Positions 46,800 to 61,816 of a stretch of DNA of 64,000 bases are shown piece by piece. Under the pieces are notes generated by a model that saw only the letters and a list, made by a program, of their open reading frames with translations, did no database searches and was not told the origin of the DNA. Source of the DNA: Marinoscillum pacificum (GTDB lineage Bacteria > Bacteroidota > Bacteroidia > Cytophagales > Cyclobacteriaceae); NCBI RefSeq assembly GCF_024714495.1, contig NZ_JAMZMJ010000016.1, positions 1-64,000 on the forward strand. The letters run 5' to 3'. Position 1 is the first letter of the stretch, and each line of letters begins with the position of its first letter. The translations under genes and the position numbers were made by a program.

Positions 46800-49325
46800 T
46801 TACTTCAAAGAGTGATCTTTTTCCAGGTATTGATTCAATGCTAGAATCACCTGATCAAGTTCGTTTTGCGCATCTTCCAGTAGCTTTTCAGAAGGAGATG
46901 AGCCTGAATCCGCCGTTTTCTCTATGTTCTTTAACAGCGGAACCAACTTCTCTGCTTTTAAGTGACGAGCTGGAGCTACAATTTTATGCGCACTGTTTGC
47001 TACCGTGTCCAAGTCGTGAGCTTCTAATGCCAATTCTATAATCGTCCATTCCTTATTGGCGCTTTCGATAAAGGTTTCTACCATGTCAGTTACAAAGGCA
47101 TCGTCACCCATTTTTTGAAGTGAAGAAAGGTCGATCTGAGTCATTGATGCTTTTTTTATAGGTTGAGTGATTTTTATAGATCTGTTGCCAGGAGCAGATT
47201 TGGAAATGAGGGTAAACAATTCCGCTTCATCAAACGGTTTTCTTAAAATGTGATCAAACCCACTAGATTGTGCCTTTTGCTTGTCTATTTGTGCTACTGT
47301 AGCCGTTAAAGCTATTAATGGCTGATCTACGTTAGGATTGTCTGTTTCTCTAACAGCTTTTGCTACTTCCCAGCCAGTCATTTCGGGCATTTTCAAATCT
47401 AAAAGGACTACATCATATTTATTCTTTTGGAGAAGTTCAAATGCTTCAGCTCCATTAACAGCAGTGTCATATTTAGCATGACACTTATCAAGAAGTGTAG
47501 CTAGCAATTTGATGTTAAACGGTTCATCGTCGGCAATCAGGAATTTCTTATCGCTGAAGTTGTCATCGTATTCAAAGACTTCTTTTTCTCTTGGTGGTTC
47601 TGCAGCGATTTCATATTCCAGATTAACTGTAACAGTTGTTCCTTCGCCTTCTTCACTCTCCAAGTTGATTTTACCTTGATGAAGTTGTACTAATTTTTTA
47701 GTGATGGCTAAGCCTAATCCTGTTCCTTTAGAGAAAGAACTCTGATCTGATTGTTCGAATTCCTGAAATAATCTGAATTGGCTTTCCTTTGGAATGCCTC
47801 TTCCCGTGTCTATTACCTGAATTTCGATCGCACTTTTCTCATCTAGATTAGTGGCAGTGACTTTTAGTTCTACGCTTCCAGATTCAGTGTACTTAATGCT
47901 GTTATTGAGTAAGTTGATCAGTATTTGCTTTAAACGATATGGATCGCCGGAAACATATTTAGGTAAGTCACTGTAGGTAGTGAATAAGTGTAGGCCTTTG
48001 GAGTCCGCAGGTTCTTTGAGAAGTTTGTAAGTATCGTCCAGCAATTCCTGCAGGTTGAATGATTTTTTCTCTAACTGGAGCTTGAGTGCTTGAAGCTTAG
48101 AGAAATCAAGAATATCATTCAGAAGTTTTAATAAATGATCTGAGGACTTTTTGATGATTTCTACCTGCTCCTGCTGATCTGAATTTAATTCTGATCTAAG
48201 CAAAAGTTTACTAAAACCTGAAATCGCATTCATAGGCGTTCGGATCTCATGACTCATATTGGCAAAGAATCTTTCCTTGGCTTTTGAGAGCGTTTCAGTG
48301 CTTTCTTTTGATCTTTTTAAGAGTTGCTGGTATTTTTTGTTCTTCTGTACATAGCTAAAAATAATAATGATAGTGGCTAGAAGGAGTAAGAATGTCAGGG
48401 AAGAGAAGATTAGAATCTGTTGATTCGTTTTAGAAGCCAGGTTTCTTGCTTCTAGAGAGTTGATCTTCATTTTTACCGTCTCACGAGACTCTAATCGACT
48501 AATCAAGTCCATGATGGTTTGCTGGATGTCATCGTGCTTATTTTGAAGCAAAAGCTCTCGTTGTTTTAATTGCTGAGATTTGGCTTGATTGCTTTGTTGG
48601 ATTTGAGTAATCGCTTCTCGAAGTTTATCCTGATAGGTAGAAGCTTGAGCTAAATAGATGCTATCTGTGTTGACTTCTTTATCCTGGATTATAGTAGTTG
48701 TTTTGGAAGATGGGGGAGCTGGTTTTCTCTTAAAGATTTTATTAAACAAACCACCTTCTTTTTCTTTCTGAGCGATTAACTCAGTTTGAGTGATTGTATC
48801 TTTTTGCTCTTTTAAACTGTCTGGGATTTTTATGTGAGATAGATCTTCTATGTGACTTTGTAGGGGATCAAGGTTGGTTTCTACCTCAGTCTGTGAAAGT
48901 TGAAGTATGTCCTCAAGCAGATCATTTTTACGAATGACCAGATTTCCTAAGGAGTCATTTAGTGCAATCAGTTCTTTGTCGTTTCGATTTCTCTTATTTA
49001 AAGAGTCAAGAGTTTTAAAGACTGCAATAACACTTTGGTCGTATTGCTGAAGGTAGTTGGTGTTTCCGGTTAGTTGATAAGATTCAATTTTATTCTCCAT
49101 GTCACTTATGGAGATCATAATTTCTTTGTAGAGGATAAGGTTGTCGTCTGGTCTGGAGTCTGTTTGGAGATCGGATACTATCTCGCTGAGGTTGCTATAA
49201 GTGATGTAACCAATTCCGGTAACGGAAATGGTTAGGAGGATTAATAAAAATCCTATGAAGTTGGCAATGTTTTTCCTTTTCAAGTATGAAATGATTAATT
49301 CCACAAAGGTAACGCGCAACTTCAT
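46800..49325 (-). CDS. Hybrid sensor histidine kinase with receiver and Hpt domains
   Basis: The 841-aa protein has a first membrane helix at about 20-42, a long coiled-coil periplasmic domain (CHASE3-like, about 45-305), a second helix at about 306-328, HisKA (His359 in NMSHEIRTPMNAI), HATPase (LINLLNNSIKYTESG, DTGRGIP, GTGLGLAITKKL), a receiver domain (about 600-715, VVLLDLKMPEMTGWE) and a C-terminal Hpt domain (about 740-830, NSAHKIVAPARHL with the phospho-His). This is a four-step phosphorelay whose last acceptor is probably the NtrC-type regulator encoded next. Confidence 0.93.
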   Translation of the reverse strand: MKLRVTFVELIISYLKRKNIANFIGFLLILLTISVTGIGYITYSNLSEIVSDLQTDSRPDDNLILYKEIMISISDMENKIESYQLTGNTNYLQQYDQSVIAVFKTLDSLNKRNRNDKELIALNDSLGNLVIRKNDLLEDILQLSQTEVETNLDPLQSHIEDLSHIKIPDSLKEQKDTITQTELIAQKEKEGGLFNKIFKRKPAPPSSKTTTIIQDKEVNTDSIYLAQASTYQDKLREAITQIQQSNQAKSQQLKQRELLLQNKHDDIQQTIMDLISRLESRETVKMKINSLEARNLASKTNQQILIFSSLTFLLLLATIIIIFSYVQKNKKYQQLLKRSKESTETLSKAKERFFANMSHEIRTPMNAISGFSKLLLRSELNSDQQEQVEIIKKSSDHLLKLLNDILDFSKLQALKLQLEKKSFNLQELLDDTYKLLKEPADSKGLHLFTTYSDLPKYVSGDPYRLKQILINLLNNSIKYTESGSVELKVTATNLDEKSAIEIQVIDTGRGIPKESQFRLFQEFEQSDQSSFSKGTGLGLAITKKLVQLHQGKINLESEEGEGTTVTVNLEYEIAAEPPREKEVFEYDDNFSDKKFLIADDEPFNIKLLATLLDKCHAKYDTAVNGAEAFELLQKNKYDVVLLDLKMPEMTGWEVAKAVRETDNPNVDQPLIALTATVAQIDKQKAQSSGFDHILRKPFDEAELFTLISKSAPGNRSIKITQPIKKASMTQIDLSSLQKMGDDAFVTDMVETFIESANKEWTIIELALEAHDLDTVANSAHKIVAPARHLKAEKLVPLLKNIEKTADSGSSPSEKLLEDAQNELDQVILALNQYLEKDHSLK

Positions 49326-52431: not shown

Positions 52432-52873
52432 TATTGTAGGAAATACTCGTTTGCATAGACGGGAGTAACAGCAATCACTGATTCGAAGATTGTTTGTGGC
52501 CTTCTGGATGTAAATAGTGATCATAGTAAAGGTAAAAGTTGAAATTATAATATCAATTGAGTACAGAGAGGAGGATTTGTGCTGATAGAGGGCATTTGGA
52601 GCTAGTGTTGAGAAACATTATGGATACTGCATTTAAATGCAGTAAACCTGGAGGTACAATAGAGATATTTGATTTGTCGCTGAATGTAACTGCTCTAAAA
52701 TCTTGGAATCATCTGATTTCTCATCAGAATTATCATATTGTAGGTCATTCAGGGGGCTGTTTTTTCGAATTTACTCTCGATAATTCCCAATCATTCCTAA
52801 TAATTCCCACTGGCTTATGATTAATTTTTTGATTTATGTGATTAAACAATATTTGTATTGTCCAAACACATAA
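52432..52873. other. Region between the transporter and the kinase array, mostly decayed
   Basis: Apart from the histidine-kinase remnant at 52557-52820 no gene is seen. ACAAT and ATTGT form an inverted repeat with a 6-nt spacer (52846-52861) just before the 66-aa gene and may be a promoter-proximal operator. Confidence 0.5.
52557..52820 (+). pseudogene. Remnant of a histidine-kinase ATPase domain
   Basis: The open stretch (TTG start only) encodes ADRGHLELVLRNIMDTAFKC-SKPGGTIEI, a clear match to the N-box strand-helix of HATPase domains (compare LRNLVNNALKFTPDGG in the kinases downstream). The following 45 codons lack the G1 and G2 boxes, but the end (SGGCFFEFTLDN) resembles the last strand of such a domain. 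It looks like an internally deleted copy rather than a working gene. Confidence 0.6.
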
Positions 52874-53074
52874 ATGCATATGATTATGACAGCTACCAAC
52901 CAGACCGCACTTAGTGATTCATTTGAAGGATTTGATGCAGAAGAGCTTGCAATGCTTGAGTCAACACTTTCAAAAATTAAGGGACATGTTGATAAGAATA
53001 TCGAGGGTTCATCAGATCCACAGCAAATCTCGAAGCTTTTGAGCATTAGATGGTACATCAACCAAAAATTTTAA
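52874..53074 (+). CDS. Small hypothetical protein (66 aa)
   Basis: The acidic helical product (SFEGFDAEELAMLESTLSKI then a helix with KLLSIRWYINQKF) has no signal peptide or membrane helix. It has three in-frame ATGs close together (52874, 52880, 52886), its own terminator 40 bp downstream and a dyad upstream, which support a real transcription unit. No family is recognised. Confidence 0.55.
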   Translation: MHMIMTATNQTALSDSFEGFDAEELAMLESTLSKIKGHVDKNIEGSSDPQQISKLLSIRWYINQKF

Positions 53075-53262: not shown

Positions 53263-53637
53263 ATGGCTAAAAAAGTAGTAATAAACTTGAGGTACTCCCA
53301 AAATAAACTTTGGTGGAGTGCAGATGATAAAACCAATTGGGGAATTGTAGGTCCTCAATCACCATACACTGTAGTGAACAGTGGATCTGATATCGACTGG
53401 ATAGGTGATAAAACAATTGATGAAGTTACCATTACACCAAAAACAGGTGACTTGTTTGAGTCTATATCTGGGGGTAAAAAAGATAAGAAAGGTAAAGTGA
53501 AGAAAAGCTGTAAGACTGGAGATACCTGTAAATATGATATTACTGTGGTATTGGCTGGGTCTAAGAAAACTATTACAGTGGATCCAGATATGGACATTTG
53601 TGATGAAGAGGATTCAAACAATTGTGCTCAGCCTTAA
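53263..53637 (+). CDS. Small beta-rich protein preceding kinase 1 (unrecognised family)
   Basis: The 124-aa protein starts at ATG 53263; an upstream TTG (53215) would add a sequence unlike that of its paralogue. It shares a layout with the gene at 55631: both open MAxxxVVNLxYxxxKLWxSxDDxxxW, have a middle DIDWIG/ELMIWMAG strand, and close with KYDITVVL...VDPDMDI against KYTIRFV...VDPKISI. A Lys/Gly-rich segment (ISGGKKDKKGKVKK) and four Cys distinguish it. There is no signal peptide. I do not recognise the family. It lies 61 bp before a TPR histidine kinase, with a terminator between. Confidence 0.75.
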   Translation: MAKKVVINLRYSQNKLWWSADDKTNWGIVGPQSPYTVVNSGSDIDWIGDKTIDEVTITPKTGDLFESISGGKKDKKGKVKKSCKTGDTCKYDITVVLAGSKKTITVDPDMDICDEEDSNNCAQP

Positions 53638-53670
53638 AGAATAGGTTTGACGAGTAAACCTTTATAAATT

Positions 53671-53697
53671 AGCGATTCAACGGTGAATCGCTTTTTT
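53671..53697 (+). terminator. Terminator abutting the start codon of kinase 1
   Basis: AGCGATTCA and TGAATCGCT form a perfect 9-bp stem with a 4-nt loop and a T7 run that ends one base before the ATG at 53699. It would end transcription of the small gene or, if read through, place the kinase start codon directly behind the hairpin. Confidence 0.85.
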
Positions 53698-53698
53698 T

Positions 53699-55546
53699 AT
53701 GTCAAAGAAATTATGGTTGTCATTCATAATTCAATTTGTCGGTTTGATTGCATACTCTAGTCAGACCAAAATTGATAGTCTTAAAGAGAAGTTATCAAGA
53801 GTTGATGTTCAGGAAAAACGAGAAGTTCTAACATCATTAACTGCATACTTGCTTAGTCAGCCGGATTCTGTTATCGCTTATGCGCAACAATTGATAGATA
53901 TAAGTCAGGATGATAAATACTATCTAGCTAGTGCGTATTTCTATATGGGGCAAGCACTTAAGGATAAAGGGAATTATGAGCAAAGTATTGATTATCTCTA
54001 CAAGTCCTTGAAACTAAAACTTGAGATTAATGAAAAAACAAGTCCTGCGGAAACATTGCTGGCTACTGTTTATGGTCGGATTGGTGATATGGAAAAAAGT
54101 AGTTTATACTTTCATAGATTGATCAAAGAATTTCATCAAAATGAAGATTCAAACAGACTAATCCAGGCTTATAATAATTTTGGTGAGGCTTTCTATCAAA
54201 ACAATCAACTTGATTCGGCATATTACTATTTTTCTATTGGAGTAGAGCATGCTAAAGAAGCTCAAAAACTCGTGTACACTAAGTTTCTTACTGGTAATTT
54301 AGGAATGGTTAACCTAAAGATTGGAAGGTTAGATTCTGCTGAAGTTCAACTACGCCAAATTGTTGATTACTTAGTTAAAGTTTCGGATGCAAAGTTGACT
54401 TTTCAGATTTTGCTGGCGGAAGTTTACATGAAAAAGAAACAGGTTGTTAAAGCCATTTCATTAACACAGGATGTTATTGCCAAATCGAATAAGGGAGAGT
54501 TTAAAGAGCAGTTACGTGATGGGTATAAGTTGTTGAGTCAGCTATATGAAATTCAAGGTGATTATGAGAATTCGTTAAAAAGCTACAAGGAGTTTATAGA
54601 ACTTGATAATAGCCTGAAAGATATTGAGGTTATTAGAAAAATCGGGGACATGAAAACAGAATTTGAGGTTGGGCAAAAACAAGCAGAACTGGATCTGGTC
54701 AATGCCGAACGAGATAAGGAGCGTTTAATAACTATTGGTATTTCTTTATTGGCCGCTGTACTGTTGATTCTTGGGTTGGTTATCCTGAAGTATTATCGGC
54801 AAAAAACCAAAACCAATGAGGAATTGGAACGACTCAATCAGACCAAGGATAAGTTTTTCTCCATTATTTCACATGATTTAAGAGGACCAGTAAGTTCCTT
54901 TTTTGGGATTAGTAGAATGATCAAATCCCTTGTTAATAGGCAACAAACGGAGCAGCTTCTGGCAATAGCTGATGATATTGATGAGTCTGTCGATCGATTG
55001 TCCGCATTATTAGATAACCTACTCAATTGGGCAATGCAGCAACAGGGTCATTTCCCGAATGTGCCTGAGAAAGTGGATTTAAATGAAGTAGCGGAGGATT
55101 TGATTCGTACGCTGGATACGATGGCTAAGGGAAAGCAAATAGACTTGCAAGCACAGATCGAGCAGCCTATTTATTTGTGGGTGGATAAAAACACCACTAT
55201 GACCATTTTACGCAATTTGGTCAATAATGCCTTGAAATTTACACCCGATGGAGGAAGTGTTACCATCTCAGCTTCCAAAAATGCCGATCAAGCCGTTATT
55301 GAAGTCATTGATTCAGGAGTGGGAATACCACAGGAGAAGCTGAAAAATTTATTTCAGTTACAAGATAAAAAGAGTACTTATGGTACTTCTGGAGAGAAGG
55401 GGCTTGGTTTAGGATTGCAGTTAGTTTATGAGTTTGTAGAAATGAATGGAGGTAAAATTGAAGTGTCGAGTCAAGAACTTGTGGGGACTACATTTACCGT
55501 TACTTTACCACTTTACGATCTAGAAGAAGAAGTAATTGCAACATAA
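53699..55546 (+). CDS. TPR-containing transmembrane histidine kinase 1 (sensor type A)
   Basis: The 615-aa protein has a signal peptide (1-21), a periplasmic array of about six TPRs (about 30-310, with YNNFGEAFYQNNQLDSAYYYF and LGMVNLKIGRLDSAEVQL), a short coiled coil, one membrane helix (about 343-364), HisKA with His392 in ISHDLRGPV, and a HATPase domain (LRNLVNNALKFTPDGG near 504, DSGVGIP, GLGLGLQLVYEF). No receiver is attached or nearby. The sensor half is closest to kinase 3, not to its direct neighbour. It should phosphorylate a regulator encoded elsewhere. Confidence 0.92.
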   Translation: MSKKLWLSFIIQFVGLIAYSSQTKIDSLKEKLSRVDVQEKREVLTSLTAYLLSQPDSVIAYAQQLIDISQDDKYYLASAYFYMGQALKDKGNYEQSIDYLYKSLKLKLEINEKTSPAETLLATVYGRIGDMEKSSLYFHRLIKEFHQNEDSNRLIQAYNNFGEAFYQNNQLDSAYYYFSIGVEHAKEAQKLVYTKFLTGNLGMVNLKIGRLDSAEVQLRQIVDYLVKVSDAKLTFQILLAEVYMKKKQVVKAISLTQDVIAKSNKGEFKEQLRDGYKLLSQLYEIQGDYENSLKSYKEFIELDNSLKDIEVIRKIGDMKTEFEVGQKQAELDLVNAERDKERLITIGISLLAAVLLILGLVILKYYRQKTKTNEELERLNQTKDKFFSIISHDLRGPVSSFFGISRMIKSLVNRQQTEQLLAIADDIDESVDRLSALLDNLLNWAMQQQGHFPNVPEKVDLNEVAEDLIRTLDTMAKGKQIDLQAQIEQPIYLWVDKNTTMTILRNLVNNALKFTPDGGSVTISASKNADQAVIEVIDSGVGIPQEKLKNLFQLQDKKSTYGTSGEKGLGLGLQLVYEFVEMNGGKIEVSSQELVGTTFTVTLPLYDLEEEVIAT

Positions 55547-55630
55547 GTTGTCTTGCTGGTTACGTTTTTTGTGATAAATTTTTAACTTCCCATACTTTTT
55601 AATTCACCTACGTAATAAACCTAACTGACC

Positions 55631-55990
55631 ATGGCTAGATATGCTGTAGTAAACATTCTTAAGTACAAGAATGGTAAACTCTATTTTTCTGATGATGACA
55701 ATTCCTGGGAAGAAGTTTCGCCTGAAACTGTAACTGGATATCCTAAGCAAAATGAATTAATGATCTGGATGGCTGGTCCTGGAGTGAAGATCATTACAGG
55801 GATCGACTTTGTTGACAATGATGACTTTGTCAATCCACCTAAGCCAAAATATACCAACCGAATGTGGATAGTCAAAGTGAAACCTGATGCGATAATTGAT
55901 AACGAGCCTAAATATACTATACGATTTGTAGATAGTGATGGGAACTGTCATGAGGTAGATCCGAAAATTAGTATAAAAGGAGGGACTTGA
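55631..55990 (+). CDS. Small beta-rich protein preceding kinase 2 (unrecognised family)
   Basis: The 119-aa protein is the paralogue of the gene at 53263 (shared opening MAxxxVVNxLxYxxGKLxxSxDDxxW and C-terminal KYxI...VDPxI). It lacks the Lys-rich segment and has one Cys (GNCHEVDP). It is predicted cytoplasmic and beta-rich. It ends 1 bp before the start of kinase 2, so the pair is almost certainly co-translated; this ties the family to the kinases. Confidence 0.8.
   Translation: MARYAVVNILKYKNGKLYFSDDDNSWEEVSPETVTGYPKQNELMIWMAGPGVKIITGIDFVDNDDFVNPPKPKYTNRMWIVKVKPDAIIDNEPKYTIRFVDSDGNCHEVDPKISIKGGT
55977..55984 (+). promoter_or_regulatory. Strong Shine-Dalgarno that sets a TTG start for kinase 2
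   Basis: AAGGAGGG stands 7 bp before TTG 55992, inside the last codons of the small gene. Shine-Dalgarno sequences are rare in Bacteroidota, and no ATG is available before the signal peptide of the kinase. Confidence 0.6.
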
Positions 55991-55991
55991 T

Positions 55992-57872
55992 TTGAGGTGT
56001 AATTTCTGCGTTATTATATTTCTTTTAGTTTTCCTGAGAGGCTATTCGCAAGATCAACGTATTGCGGATAGTCTCTTATTTATTTATGACAAACAGGCTA
56101 ATGGAGATTTAAATGCTTCAGAGTATAGTGAGCTCGTTTGGAGTATAGCTTTCAATTCTACAAACCCACAAGAGAAAATTCGATATTCCAATGAAATGAT
56201 TGATTTCTCCTTAAAAAATGGCGATGAAATAGGAGTTCTCAGAGGGTATTATCAATTGGGTGATGCACTACGCAAATTGGGAAATTTAGATAGTGCCCTT
56301 CAGGTTTTTTTTAAATGTTTAGAAATATCAAAAAGACAAGAAGCAGTCGTCTCAAATAGTGTTGGCGAATCACTTGTTGCTATCGCTGATATATATTCAA
56401 TATTAGGGAGTCATCAAAATGCCATTGACTATTACAAGCAAGCCATTTTTGCACTAACAGGACGAAATAAGTTGACACTTGCTTCTGTTCAGCTCAATTT
56501 GGGAGATGAATATTTCAATTATGGTGAGTTGGATTCTGCACTTTTCTACTTTGAAGCATCTCAACTGATTTATCAGGATTTAGATTATACAATTGGAGTT
56601 GCGTATAGTTTAGGAAACATCGGGTTGGTTTATGCCAAGCAGGGTCATTTTATTTCTGCGGAAAAGAACATACAACTGGCTGTGAATAGTCTTGATAAGA
56701 TGGAGGATTATTATGGGATATCAATTTACCTCACCTATATGGCCGATATCTATGAGCAGAAGCATGAAATAAATTCTGCTTTAAAGTATGCGTCAAAAAG
56801 TATGCAATTAGCTATTCGGTATGGTCTGAAAGAACAAATAAGAGATGCAAGTCTGAAGTTATCTCAGCTATTTGAAATGCAGAGAAACATAGACAGTGCG
56901 TATTATTATCACAAACAGTATGTCGCGTTCAGGGATAGTATTAATAATGAAGAAACCATTCAAAAGATTGCTGATATCCGCACGGAATATGAAGTTGGTC
57001 AAAAACAAGCTGAAGTAGACGTACTTACGGCACAACAAAAGACTGAGCGGGTCATCATGGCAGCAATTACCTTGCTTGCTGTGGTGCTGCTCATACTTGG
57101 GTTAATTGTTTACAAATACTACAAGCAAAAAAGCAGAACAAGCCAGGAATTGGAACGGCTTAATCAAACCAAAGACAAATTTTTTTCCATCATTTCTCAT
57201 GATTTACGCGGCCCGGTAAGTTCATTTATGGGTATAAGTAGAATGATCAAGTTTTTAGTAGAGGCAAAAGAAACTGATCAACTACTCGAAATCGCGGATG
57301 ATATTGATGACTCTGTGGAAAGACTTTCTGCGCTTCTAGATAATCTCCTCAATTGGGCCATGCAGCAACAAGGTCATTTTCCTAATGTGCCTGAAAAAGT
57401 ATCTCTGAATGACATGGCGGATGAGATTGTGAAGACCTTAAAAAATATGGCTCAAGGAAAGCTCATCGATTTGAAAGCTGACATTTCTGAGTCTATAGAC
57501 CTCTGGGTGGATAGGAATACGACCATGACGATTCTTAGAAATCTGGTGAGTAATGCGTTGAAATTTACACCTGAGACAGGTGCAGTTATGATACAAGCGT
57601 ATTCTAAACACGATCGGGCTATTATTAAGATTAAAGACACTGGGGTTGGTATTTCACAAGACAAATTAGAGAACCTTTTTAAACTACAGGATAAGAAAAG
57701 CACTTATGGCACTGCCGGGGAAAAAGGGCTTGGTCTTGGCCTTCAGCTGGTCTATGAGTTTATAGAAATGAATCAAGGAAGAATTGATGTGAGTAGTGAA
57801 GAAGGAAAGGGAACTACCTTCGAAATCAGTTTGCCTCTATTTTCTTACTCAGAACAATTAGTCGAGAGTTGA
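55992..57872 (+). CDS. TPR-containing transmembrane histidine kinase 2 (sensor type B)
   Basis: The 626-aa protein starts with TTG and a signal peptide (1-20, ending RGYSQ). The periplasmic half has about six TPRs of a type shared with kinase 4 (LGDEYFNYGELDSALFYFEA; YSLGNIGLVYAKQGHFISAE; MADIYEQKHEINSALKYASK). A membrane helix (about 353-374) precedes HisKA with His403 in ISHDLRGPV and a complete HATPase domain (LRNLVSNALKFTPETG, DTGVGIS, GLGLGLQLVYEF). No receiver domain. It is coupled to the small gene upstream by a 1-bp gap. Confidence 0.92.
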   Translation: MRCNFCVIIFLLVFLRGYSQDQRIADSLLFIYDKQANGDLNASEYSELVWSIAFNSTNPQEKIRYSNEMIDFSLKNGDEIGVLRGYYQLGDALRKLGNLDSALQVFFKCLEISKRQEAVVSNSVGESLVAIADIYSILGSHQNAIDYYKQAIFALTGRNKLTLASVQLNLGDEYFNYGELDSALFYFEASQLIYQDLDYTIGVAYSLGNIGLVYAKQGHFISAEKNIQLAVNSLDKMEDYYGISIYLTYMADIYEQKHEINSALKYASKSMQLAIRYGLKEQIRDASLKLSQLFEMQRNIDSAYYYHKQYVAFRDSINNEETIQKIADIRTEYEVGQKQAEVDVLTAQQKTERVIMAAITLLAVVLLILGLIVYKYYKQKSRTSQELERLNQTKDKFFSIISHDLRGPVSSFMGISRMIKFLVEAKETDQLLEIADDIDDSVERLSALLDNLLNWAMQQQGHFPNVPEKVSLNDMADEIVKTLKNMAQGKLIDLKADISESIDLWVDRNTTMTILRNLVSNALKFTPETGAVMIQAYSKHDRAIIKIKDTGVGISQDKLENLFKLQDKKSTYGTAGEKGLGLGLQLVYEFIEMNQGRIDVSSEEGKGTTFEISLPLFSYSEQLVES

Positions 57873-57918
57873 TTTGTGTTTGGTTTTGAGGTGTTGATTG
57901 GTTCAGGCAATAATTCGC

Positions 57919-57926
57919 TAACTTTG
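57919..57926 (+). promoter_or_regulatory. Putative -7 element (TAACTTTG) of kinase 3
   Basis: TAACTTTG fits TAnnTTTG and stands 12 bp before ATG 57938. TTG at 57895 and 57899 give possible -33 elements at 21 and 17 bp. The transcript would be nearly leaderless. Confidence 0.5.
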
Positions 57927-57937
57927 ATTTAGTTATA

Positions 57938-59827
57938 ATGATGAGTTGCTGCAAACATGTTTTTACTTTCTTGTTGCTCCTTGGGATGCAGCATATTGCA
58001 TTATCAAGTAATGAGTCAATTGATAGTCTTAAGCATGTACTCTCTAAGGAATTAAGTGTTGAGGATCGTCTTCAAACTTTAGCGTTTCTGACTCGCGATT
58101 ACCGTTTTCAGGAGGATTCTTCAATTAAATATGGGCACATCTTGCTACATGAATCCATCGAGCTCCAAAATAATTATTACGTATCCTCTGCTTGTGTTAA
58201 TCTTGGTCAATCCTTTAAGGATAAAGGTGCATATGAAATAGCAGCTAAATATTTGTTGCAAGCGTTGGATGCCGCCAAATCAGATGGTTTAAACCTTCAG
58301 AATCATTATGGGCTTCTTGGTGCCGTTTATGGGAGGTTAGGTGATATGCAGAGATCGTTCATGTACTTTGAAAAAAGCATAGAATGGGCTGAAAAGCATG
58401 AATATGCTTTGTATTTAAAATGTATTTCCTACAATAACCTCGCTGAAGCATATTATCAAAATGGCGTCTTTGACTCGGCAAATGTCTACTTTCGTAAGGC
58501 TTACGATATTGCTTATTCTAAAAATTATGGTGCCAGACACTTAATTAGTGGAAATATAGGCATGATGAACCTGAAGTTTGGAAAATTAGATTCGGCAGAA
58601 ATCCAATTAAAACGAGTGCTGAGTCATTTGGACCCATCCAGTAAAGCTTATTTGACATTCAAAATATTAATAGGGCGGTTGTACTTTGAAACAGATAGAT
58701 TGGACTCTGCTCTTATTGCCACCAAAGAAGTTATCAGAAATTCAGAATTGCTGGAAATTAAAGAGCAGGTAAGGGATGGTCTGTTGCTTTTAAGTCAGAT
58801 TCAAAAAAGTATTGGAGATTTAGAAGGAGCTTTTACCAATTACGAGACCTATGTTGAGTTAAAAGATGAACTAGAAAACGTTGAGGCGTATGCAAGAATA
58901 AGCAATCTGCAGTCAGAATTTGACCTAGCACAAAAGGATGCAGAAATACAGGTATATGCCGCGGAAAAGAAGAGCCGAGATGTAGTGTTAATCGTTGTAT
59001 TAGCATTTTTTGTTTTGTTGGGTGGTTTTGTGATAGTGTTGATGAGACAAAATCGATCAAAGTCGCGAATGAATGTTCAGCTTACCCGACAGAAGGGTGA
59101 ACTGGAAGTACTTAATCAAACCAAGGATAAGTTTTTCAGCATTATTTCTCATGACTTGAGAGGGCCAGTTAGTGCTTTTTACGGAGTGAGTCGGATGATT
59201 AAGTTTTTGGCTATTTCCAATCGAACAGATGAATTGATAGAAATGGCAGATGATATCAGTAAATCAGTTGATCGACTCTCATCATTGTTAGATAATTTGT
59301 TAAACTGGGCCATGCAGCAACGCGGGGATATTCCTAATATTCCAGAAAAGATCATTTTGAAAACCTTGGTTTTAGAAATTGTAGGTTCCTTAAAGACGCT
59401 TGCAGAAAGTAAAAATATTAGTTTGACGTGTGATATTGATGATCAAATGGTTATTTGGGCGGATAAGAATATTACCTCCACCATTATTCGAAACCTGATC
59501 AGTAATTCGTTGAAGTTTACACCGGAAGGCGGGCAGGTAAGTATTTTGGTTGAGGAGAAAAATCGCACTGCTAGCGTTGTGATTCGAGATTCGGGAGTGG
59601 GTATTCCTGAATACAAATTGAAAACACTTTTCAATGGTCAATCAGAGGAATCTACTTATGGAACTGCAGGTGAAAAGGGACTTGGGCTAGGATTGCAACT
59701 TGTGCATGAATTTGTAGGAATGATTGGGGGGAAAATATCCGTTGAGAGCCAAATTAATACTGGCACGAGCTTTAAGTTCACTGTTCCAAAATATGAATTG
59801 GGAAAAGAGTTAGCTGAAATTCATTAG
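57938..59827 (+). CDS. TPR-containing transmembrane histidine kinase 3 (sensor type A)
   Basis: The 629-aa protein has a signal peptide (about 1-23, ATG 57938 or 57941), about six TPRs like those of kinase 1 (YNNLAEAYYQNGVFDSANVYF; IGMMNLKFGKLDSAEIQL), a membrane helix (about 349-370), HisKA with His405 in ISHDLRGPV and HATPase with IRNLISNSLKFTPEGG, DSGVGIP and GLGLGLQLVHEF. It has no small gene in front of it. It may have its own promoter. Confidence 0.92.
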   Translation: MMSCCKHVFTFLLLLGMQHIALSSNESIDSLKHVLSKELSVEDRLQTLAFLTRDYRFQEDSSIKYGHILLHESIELQNNYYVSSACVNLGQSFKDKGAYEIAAKYLLQALDAAKSDGLNLQNHYGLLGAVYGRLGDMQRSFMYFEKSIEWAEKHEYALYLKCISYNNLAEAYYQNGVFDSANVYFRKAYDIAYSKNYGARHLISGNIGMMNLKFGKLDSAEIQLKRVLSHLDPSSKAYLTFKILIGRLYFETDRLDSALIATKEVIRNSELLEIKEQVRDGLLLLSQIQKSIGDLEGAFTNYETYVELKDELENVEAYARISNLQSEFDLAQKDAEIQVYAAEKKSRDVVLIVVLAFFVLLGGFVIVLMRQNRSKSRMNVQLTRQKGELEVLNQTKDKFFSIISHDLRGPVSAFYGVSRMIKFLAISNRTDELIEMADDISKSVDRLSSLLDNLLNWAMQQRGDIPNIPEKIILKTLVLEIVGSLKTLAESKNISLTCDIDDQMVIWADKNITSTIIRNLISNSLKFTPEGGQVSILVEEKNRTASVVIRDSGVGIPEYKLKTLFNGQSEESTYGTAGEKGLGLGLQLVHEFVGMIGGKISVESQINTGTSFKFTVPKYELGKELAEIH

Positions 59828-59864
59828 TATTTATTCTTCGGTGATACTCATTTCTGGGTCTTTA

Positions 59865-59872
59865 TTAACTTT
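59865..59872 (+). promoter_or_regulatory. Putative -7 element (TAACTTTG) of kinase 4
   Basis: The same octamer as before kinase 3, 24 bp upstream of ATG 59897. No clear -33 TTG is present. Confidence 0.4.
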
Positions 59873-59896
59873 GGGGTATATATCTGATAATCAGGT

Positions 59897-61816
59897 ATGA
59901 GTGATAAACCTAATCACATGACCTCCAGCTACCTAAAATACTTTGCTTTTTTACTGATTTTATTCGGTATTGAGTCCAATGCTCAGAATCAATTCCAGGC
60001 AGATAGTCTAATAGAAGTTTATAATAAGTTGCCGGAAGGAGATACAGCTAGATTTAACTTGTTGAAAGAGATTGCTAATAATCAAAATGATCCAAGACAA
60101 AAGTTAAAATTCGCTAGCAAGCTTATTGAGGAAGCTAAGAAAGTTAAAAGTCTTCGCTATTTACATCATGGATATGTAAATGAAGGACAAGCCTATCGAT
60201 TAATGGGCGATTTTAACGTTGCTATTTATAGCTTGTTCAAAGCATTGGCAATTGCTGAAGAAGATCAATATGACAAAGGTATAGCTGCCGCTAACACTGC
60301 ATTGGCTGATGTGCACTCAATTGTAGGAAATCATACCAATTCCATACTCTATTACAAAGAGGCGATGAAATGGTTGACTAAATCAGATAGCACGCTTCTT
60401 GCAATCATTTTGCTCAATATGGGAGATGAGTATTATTTGTCTTCCATGTATGATTCTGCTTTGGTGAGCTTTCAGTCATCTTTAGCCATCTATGAAAATC
60501 TTGGGAATGACGCTTCGGGCTTAGCTTATAACCTTGGCAATATTGGATTGGTACAAGCAGAACTAGGAAATCTGGAAGAGGCAGAGTTTAATATCAAAGC
60601 CGCCATCGGATCATTGGAGACTCTTGGTGATCATTATGGAAGTGCCATTTTTTTGAGCTATCTGGCTGAAATTTACGGTAAGAAGGGATATTTAAAGCAA
60701 GCGAAAGTTCTGGCGGATTCTAGTATGTCAATTTCACAGAGATATGGATTGAAGGCGGAAATACGAGATAATTCAAGACGGCTTGCGGATATCTATGCGA
60801 TGAGTTCAGATTATGAAACGGCTTACCGATACCATCAACAGTATGTTCAGTTAAAAGACAGTATTTCTAATGACGAGATATTAAGTCAAATGGAGAACCT
60901 GGAAAGTGCTTTTGAATTGGCAAAAAAACAATCCGAGGTTGATCTTCTAACTGCAGAACAAGAGTATCAAAGCACGGTTATCAACGCGACCATTATCATT
61001 TCAATTATTTTGGTAATTCTTGCGATTGTTATTCTCATGTATTACCGTAATAAAGCCAGAACAAATGCTGTTTTAGAACTTCAGAAGCAAAAGCTGGAAG
61101 AGCTTAATCAGACCAAAGACAAGTTTTTCTCTATTATTTCACATGATTTGAGAGGTCCTATTAATTCCTTTCATGGTATCAGTAGTTTGATCAAATTCTT
61201 TGTGGAAGCAAAGGATATGGATCAACTGTTGGAAGTAGCAGATGATATTGATCAGTCAGTAGATCGATTGAATAATCTATTGAATAACTTATTGAGCTGG
61301 GCAATGAAACAACAAGGTCAGTTTCCTAATGTTCCTGAAAAAGTTAATCTCAATGAACTCGCACAAGAGTTGGTAGAGACTCTTGATAATATGGCTCAAG
61401 GTAAAAACATTGAACTCAGTGCCAGAATTGATGAGCAGATCTTTCTTTGGGCAGATAAAAATACAACCATGACCATTCTAAGGAACTTAGTCAATAATGC
61501 ATTGAAGTTTACGATGCCTGGCGGAAAGGTCGGTATAGCTGCTACACGAGATAAAAAGAATGCGATTATCAAGATTTATGATACCGGACTTGGTATGCCT
61601 GCGGATAAATTGGTGCTATTGGGTAAGCTACAAGACCTATCTAGTACGTATGGTACTGGAGGAGAAAGAGGTTTGGGACTTGGGCTACAGTTGGTCTACG
61701 AATTTGTGGAAATGAACAATGGCAAAATAGAAGTGGATAGTGTAGAGAAAATTGGAACCACATTTACTGTCTATTTGCCATTGTTTGATGAAGTGACTGA
61801 ACAAGTCACTGCCTAA
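59897..61816 (+). CDS. TPR-containing transmembrane histidine kinase 4 (sensor type B)
   Basis: The 639-aa protein starts at ATG 59897 or, giving a more typical signal peptide, ATG 59918. Its TPRs are like those of kinase 2 (MGDEYYLSSMYDSALVSFQSS; YNLGNIGLVQAELGNLEEAE; LAEIYGKKGYLKQAKVLADS). A membrane helix (about 360-382) is followed by HisKA with His416 in ISHDLRGPI and HATPase with LRNLVNNALKFTMPGG, DTGLGMP and GLGLGLQLVYEF. Its stop codon touches that of the convergent gene. Confidence 0.92.
   Translation: MSDKPNHMTSSYLKYFAFLLILFGIESNAQNQFQADSLIEVYNKLPEGDTARFNLLKEIANNQNDPRQKLKFASKLIEEAKKVKSLRYLHHGYVNEGQAYRLMGDFNVAIYSLFKALAIAEEDQYDKGIAAANTALADVHSIVGNHTNSILYYKEAMKWLTKSDSTLLAIILLNMGDEYYLSSMYDSALVSFQSSLAIYENLGNDASGLAYNLGNIGLVQAELGNLEEAEFNIKAAIGSLETLGDHYGSAIFLSYLAEIYGKKGYLKQAKVLADSSMSISQRYGLKAEIRDNSRRLADIYAMSSDYETAYRYHQQYVQLKDSISNDEILSQMENLESAFELAKKQSEVDLLTAEQEYQSTVINATIIISIILVILAIVILMYYRNKARTNAVLELQKQKLEELNQTKDKFFSIISHDLRGPINSFHGISSLIKFFVEAKDMDQLLEVADDIDQSVDRLNNLLNNLLSWAMKQQGQFPNVPEKVNLNELAQELVETLDNMAQGKNIELSARIDEQIFLWADKNTTMTILRNLVNNALKFTMPGGKVGIAATRDKKNAIIKIYDTGLGMPADKLVLLGKLQDLSSTYGTGGERGLGLGLQLVYEFVEMNNGKIEVDSVEKIGTTFTVYLPLFDEVTEQVTA

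Follow-up and report, generated by a model that had tools for sequence, protein, structure and literature searches.

The closest described relatives of the locus reported here are the TPR sensor histidine kinases of the Bacteroidota, among which its kinases have many relatives and with which they share domain order and core motifs. In the RRNPP receptors, such as NprR and Rap, the TPR protein is a cytoplasmic regulator and a short exported signal peptide is encoded next to the receptor. The ComQXPA and Agr quorum-sensing loci join a variable sensor half to a conserved kinase half. Two further families bear on the small genes described below and both carry an Asp-Pro pair near the C-terminus. 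SO1698 of Shewanella oneidensis, of the DP-EP family (PF08985), is reported to cleave itself at this Asp-Pro, and the titles of its PDB entries name an aspartic peptidase and point mutants around Asp116-Pro117. The PixA proteins of the PixA/AidA family (PF12306) are described as inclusion body proteins whose levels rise as cells enter stationary phase (PMC9060813).

We analyzed a 64,000-nucleotide stretch of Marinoscillum pacificum DNA (the window), from a genome of 6.4 Mb. A sequence-only reading had described four membrane TPR histidine kinases lying head to tail, and open reading frames and Pfam bear this out: four kinases occupy 53699-61816, all on the forward strand, and each of them (4/4) passes the Pfam cut-offs for TPR repeats, HisKA and HATPase_c (Table 1). 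That reading placed the start of kinase 1 at 53263, which is the start of a separate 124-residue gene, S1, and it missed both S1 and a second small gene, S2, between K1 and K2. The locus consists of units of an S gene and a TPR sensor, together with two kinases that have no S, and we consider it fairly probable that S is a dedicated near-membrane partner of sensors whose outer heads are exchangeable. The array thereby differs from other TPR sensor histidine kinases of the Bacteroidota, in that an S gene accompanies K1 and K2 and both contain a TEFEVGQK-type segment, which the 75 S-less sensors examined lack. No small partner of this kind for a TPR sensor is described among the matches listed from open-licence papers.

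Table 1. Features of the array and its upstream flank, with positions in the window
Feature	Position	Strand	Description	Basis
Hybrid kinase	46800..49325	-	CHASE3-HisKA-HATPase-REC-Hpt; nearest receiver found, 3.9 kb upstream of S1	Pfam
63-aa ORF	52883..53074	+	upstream of S1; kept upstream of the array in four congeners (86, 75, 46, 44% identity)	
S1	53263..53637	+	124 aa, leaderless, four Cys, Asp-Pro at 107-108	ORF; S-profile E 2e-34 (profile includes S1)
Hairpin	53671..53692	+	9 pairs, then T run; ends just ahead of the K1 ATG, between S1 and K1	pattern scan
K1	53699..55546	+	type A TPR sensor histidine kinase, motif TEFEVGQK	ORF, Pfam, alignment
S2	55631..55990	+	119 aa, Asp-Pro at 110-111; stop 1 base ahead of K2 start	ORF, AlphaFold2, Foldseek
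K2	55992..57872	+	type B TPR sensor histidine kinase, TTG start, motif TEYEVGQK	ORF, Pfam
K3	57938..59827	+	type A TPR sensor histidine kinase; no S gene before it, no juxtamembrane motif	ORF, Pfam
K4	59897..61816	+	last TPR sensor histidine kinase, conserved; without S, without motif	ORF, Pfam

As read from the sequence, the N-terminus of each kinase is hydrophobic, and so is a stretch ahead of HisKA. The H-box motif SHDLRGP is common to all four and carries G instead of T/N at H+4, a position whose residue bears on phosphatase activity. The kinase cores had been called nearly the same; the motifs named for them are indeed present in the core alignment, but identity is just 53-71% at the amino-acid and 58-68% at the nucleotide level. 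The K1 sensor is modeled as a TPR superhelix (pLDDT 91), and comparison of the TPR sensor model with the RRNPP receptors NprR and Rap gives Foldseek E values of 5e-7 to 5e-6. The array resembles those receptors in its superhelix and in a small partner encoded adjacent to it, but it is not a member of the group, as its sensor is a membrane kinase and its partner a folded protein some 120 residues long. TPR fold matches say little about the ligand.

Intergenic gaps are 61 bases between S1 and K1, 1 base between S2 and K2, 65 between K2 and K3, and 69 between K3 and K4, and from the last two gaps the array is likely to be one operon. The hairpin in front of K1 could act as a terminator or attenuator separating S1 from K1, a role that is no more than suggestive since two sites of a hairpin with a T run were found in the region against 5.3 expected by chance. 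Kinases are abundant in this genome, with 138 HATPase_c matches in total and, at E 0.001 or better, 107 matches to K1, of which many run through the kinase core alone. Outside the window, two other places in the same genome (G000:C8:50586-56824 and G000:C28:116411-125261) hold four HATPase_c matches in a row each; one match of the second set is under the cut-off, and three of the four genes of the first also match the TPR region of K1.

The association of S with TPR sensors extends well beyond the array. A profile search of the organism's own genome found three S genes, all directly upstream of a TPR kinase of the array's clade (3/3), the third standing before the nearest TPR kinase outside the array. 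Among 291 genomes of the order, 16 carry a total of 21 S genes, every one upstream of a TPR sensor (21/21), with two of them forming a tandem S-S pair ahead of one sensor. A larger profile found S in 8 of 395 genomes of a phylum set; five of these genomes were new, of which one (G040) had given no match in the earlier search, and they supplied six further S genes, again all upstream of a TPR sensor (6/6) and again with one tandem pair. The family is rare, and in the two surveys together 27/27 S genes precede a membrane TPR sensor, a synteny that may represent one ancestral arrangement. Ten S-linked sensors were assigned by Pfam as five class III cyclases, one SpoIIE protein and four HATPase kinases (three with HisKA over the cut-off), the remaining ones being recognized by the sensor profile. 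Because the output domains differ (kinase, cyclase or SpoIIE phosphatase), it is S together with the TPR region that forms the constant element. At one locus (L173:3552-4520), upstream of a TPR cyclase, the S domain is fused behind ricin-type beta-trefoil lectin repeats.

A juxtamembrane motif, T-x-[FY]-[ED]-V-x-x-K, further marks the S-linked sensors. Of the 124 TPR sensors that a profile recovered, it is carried by 35 of the 41 linked to S, by none of the 75 without S and by none of the 8 whose upstream region lies outside the sequence examined. The strict motif is absent from six S-linked sensors, one of them cut short; in a relaxed form it was found in 37/41 S-linked sensors and 0/48 others of the tree set. 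A quick tree of 89 sensors places 40 of the 41 S-linked members in one weakly supported group (71), which also includes ten S-less sensors that all lack the motif: seven of the K4 kind, the two K3 sensors and a fragment. Joint loss of S and the motif is just suggestive, since the tree offers only four independent contrasts (sign test, p 0.125). For the motif, tree and S-terminus counts, identical proteins were counted once and the duplicates L069, L070 and L075 (of L058, L055 and L062) were left out. L067 is not in the motif count, and L059, whose upstream region is cut by the contig start, was scored as an edge case there and as S-less on the tree, and was kept out of the pair test.

The S proteins of the array have no Pfam match in a scan that included PF12306 and PF08985, and S1 and S2 are only weakly alike (E 3e-5 over 34 residues). 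The AlphaFold2 model of S2 is all beta (pLDDT 92.4), and the family as a whole is predicted to be a beta-sandwich of about 120 residues that appears, from its sequence, to be distantly related to PixA/AidA. In 36 aligned members Asp-Pro is the sole invariant feature, with Trp46 and Tyr91 (S1 numbering) nearly so. This Asp-Pro, which sits at the C-terminal strand, is invariant in three S alignments and present in 44/45 profile matches, a count that is biased since the profile itself contains Asp-Pro. The candidate L060:5992 is truncated and has no Asp-Pro, and L192:996 is a weak (E 3e-4) and doubtful match.

Two different known families are indicated for S, PixA/AidA by sequence and SO1698 by fold. 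The S profile matches an inclusion body protein of the PixA/AidA family (PDB 8rqy) at E 3.7e-5 with Asp-Pro aligned. PixA was listed at E 0.015 or better for 4 of 21 S members scanned. One of the four, a Fulvivirga S protein, is over the Pfam cut-off for PF12306 (29.0 bits against 21) and also matches 8rqy at 3e-8 and MakD (6tct) at 1e-7. This is a remote homology; S1 and S2 differ from PixA/AidA in being shorter and in being tied to TPR sensors, and no PixA structure is among the best 50 Foldseek matches listed for the S2 model. The top 11 of these matches are SO1698 entries (PDB 3njf-3njn, E 1e-6 to 2e-4, TM 0.56-0.66), and SO1698 shares the Asp-Pro with S. S has no sequence match to DP-EP, which was found neither in the organism's own genome nor over the cut-off in 98 genomes searched, and one weak DP-EP match among the latter (L183) was judged from its ORFs to be due to chance. 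By analogy with SO1698, S could cleave itself at Asp-Pro, and the TPR sensor could detect either the freed C-terminal peptide or the cut body; we think this unlikely. If true, it would represent an Asp-Pro autoprotease-based receptor-ligand module in the Bacteroidota, with exchangeable heads and plugged into kinases, cyclases and SpoIIE phosphatases.

The relationship to PixA/AidA also permits S to be regarded as a cytoplasmic storage or stress protein of that type, which would be a mere ancient operon neighbor of the sensor or a co-regulated product. The profile match to a solved inclusion body protein and the stationary-phase behavior of PixA fit such a role, as does the finding by a crude rule that 36 of 45 S-profile matches look leaderless, with a hydrophobic signal-like N-terminus in the other 9. 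Pairing with TPR sensors nevertheless persists across output types and families, and some S proteins look lipoprotein-like or exported. In addition, the sole full-length classical PixA in the 291 genomes of the order, which likewise has Asp-Pro, is solitary with no TPR sensor beside it. A storage or stress role is therefore tentatively entertained, on the doubtful side.

Export is the principal gap in the case for a dedicated partner S acting close to the membrane: neither S1 nor S2 has a recognizable export signal, whereas the TPR head should lie outside. Several observations touch on where S might reside. At two loci (L181:883-4319 and L177:14-1538) an S-kinase pair was seen by eye to lie behind ABC exporter-like (C39-type in L181) and HlyD-type genes, a possible export route for leaderless S. 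The S protein at L193:1417-1869 has a hydrophobic tail after Asp-Pro that could anchor it in the membrane. All five aligned S1-type members have two cysteines after Asp-Pro, and these would suit an oxidising place.

Comparison with congeners reveals a mosaic pattern of conservation. In the comparison of the window with G003, identity is 76-86% for flanking genes, 81% for K4, 87% for S2 and 61% for S1. Within K2, the distal TPR region is 43% identical overall and the proximal region 85%; in 40-residue windows the outer repeats reach 18-30%, the middle repeats 42-70%, the part from the last repeats through the membrane to part of HisKA 78-95%, and the rest of the core 55-82%. The corresponding windows of K1 give 28-55% over the repeats and 72-98% from just ahead of the membrane onward, and those of K4 give 58-95% past the signal region. 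In unit b of G004, S2 is 83-85% and the K2 proximal segment 87% identical, but the head is of another type (30%). Because S2 and the proximal half are kept while the distal head diverges in both G003 and G004 unit b, we read this pattern as probable replacement of TPR heads on a conserved chassis, and the distal head of K2 as one that has been replaced between congeners.

The identity of S was also compared with that of the sensor segments. In 11 array units, S correlates with the sensor segments, taken in order from the distal one to the linker (Spearman 0.54, 0.53, 0.38 and 0.39, values reached by 2, 0, 2 and 10 of 2000 permutations), but not with the core (0.17, 195/2000). All 25 units yield 0.43 for the linker (0/2000), 0.33 for the core (0/2000), 0.25 and 0.24 for the repeats (4 and 10) and 0.13 for the proximal segment (114/2000), and a thinned set of 19 units agrees (core 0.30, 6/2000; proximal 0.14, 177/2000). 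Tracking that is specific to the sensor is a result at the level of the genus only, because the 25- and 19-unit sets track the core too. The unit sets used here are selections from those available, with 25 for the sensor tree, 18 for segment identities, 25 for co-variation and 20 for clade tests.

These patterns bear on the proposal of a peptide- or protein-based system of cell-cell communication, in which S would be exported as the signal and read by the TPR head as a marker of self. TPR receptors for peptide pheromones are among the fold matches, S1-type members share the paired cysteines noted above, and the C-terminal tails of S2 vary (2-4/8 residues identical, versus 98-99/111 in the body, for the window against G004 and G003). 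This variation is weak evidence, since some unrelated neighboring gene ends vary as much (K2 1/9, K3 2/9, K4 3/9 and gntK 3/9; six others 7-9/9; one cut gene 5/9). Co-variation of S tails with swapped heads was not relied on, given the other variable gene ends and the mostly short tails of the 45 profile matches. The array shares with ComQXPA and Agr a variable sensor half on a conserved kinase half, but an S2 body that is conserved while the heads change is the reverse of what a matched pheromone and receptor would lead one to expect. The exporter-like pair, noticed by eye, stands beside S at two loci only, and overall we hold a self-marking signal to be quite unlikely.

The history of the array in the genus was examined with respect to the earlier proposal that a two-kinase unit had been duplicated, giving paired A/B heteromeric receptors that feed one orphan regulator. 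Its sensor types, A for K1 and K3 and B for K2 and K4, hold on a tree of 25 sensors, which adds a third type, C. Its A-B-A-B alternation is seen in both the window and G003, and its observation that no receiver or DNA-binding gene lies inside the array stands (none found among ORFs of at least 80 residues or by Pfam). The order is variable, however: A-C-B4 in G004, C-A-B4 in G002 and C-C-B-B4 in G001, so that only two of five arrays are alike, an outcome which the sequence-only reading had itself set against duplication of the unit. An orthologue of K4 occurs in every one of the six genomes searched within the genus, the window's included, and therefore the K2/K4 split predates these species. 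K4 is the last array gene in five of them; in the sixth (G005) it starts 89 bases from a contig end, and the region upstream of it lies beyond that contig. A clade of K2 and K4 (window and G003) is rejected for both sensors (p-AU 4e-12) and cores (p-AU 1.5e-5). The grouping of K1 with K2 over the sensors of the same two genomes, named beforehand as contrary to the duplication, is also rejected (p-AU 1e-63), in keeping with the A/B typing. These clade tests, on 20 units, were done after the first tree had been seen. Moreover, an S gene precedes K1 and K2 only, and the S-linked units upstream of K4 differ in number and type across the five arrays. Unit duplication feeding an orphan regulator thus appears very improbable.

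K3 was found solely in the window's genome and G003 among the six searched, and it may be a younger copy of K1, because neither the sensors (p 0.062) nor the cores (p 0.42) reject a clade of K1 and K3. The suggestion that neighboring cores would group together does not simply hold: the K1 and K2 cores join their G003 orthologues, and units a and b group within the genome in G001 and in G004. Recent gene conversion among the window cores was considered and rejected, the K1 and K2 cores being 68% identical in nucleotides and 43% at third positions. Units a and b of G001 do show such a pattern: they are 27-28% identical ahead of a sharp joint and 98% (linker) and 96% (core) identical past it, which we read as an apparent recent exchange or duplication of the signalling half.

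The hybrid kinase upstream of S1 is the first candidate for a phosphorelay recipient of the array kinases. Its N-terminal part (121 to 558 residues seen) is at the same place in 4/4 congeners with the flank fetched, and its receiver and Hpt domains were seen in the window copy only. At 52557-52820 is a histidine kinase remnant, PAS-like by eye, where four congeners have an open ORF of ~550 residues; the kinase has decayed in the window, as just 48% identity over 33 residues to the G003 copy remains (E 1e-6).

Taken as a dedicated partner, S would serve the TPR sensor of the gene that directly follows it as ligand, co-receptor or regulator. Its physical binding site would lie near the membrane, most likely on the outer side, and would comprise the final TPR repeats together with the T-x-[FY]-E-V-x-x-K segment leading into the transmembrane helix; once docked, S would set or relay the signalling state of the sensor. 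The outer TPR repeats would form a separate, exchangeable recognition head for a variable ligand, and congeners could differ in the head yet have S and the signalling half in common. From the kinases the signal would presumably pass to a phosphorelay protein, either unlinked or encoded nearby. The conserved small gene is a directly testable candidate for what these TPR sensors work with, and its pairing with them would assign a function to remote kin of the PixA/AidA proteins, which are poorly understood. The array itself would provide naturally occurring head swaps on a single chassis.
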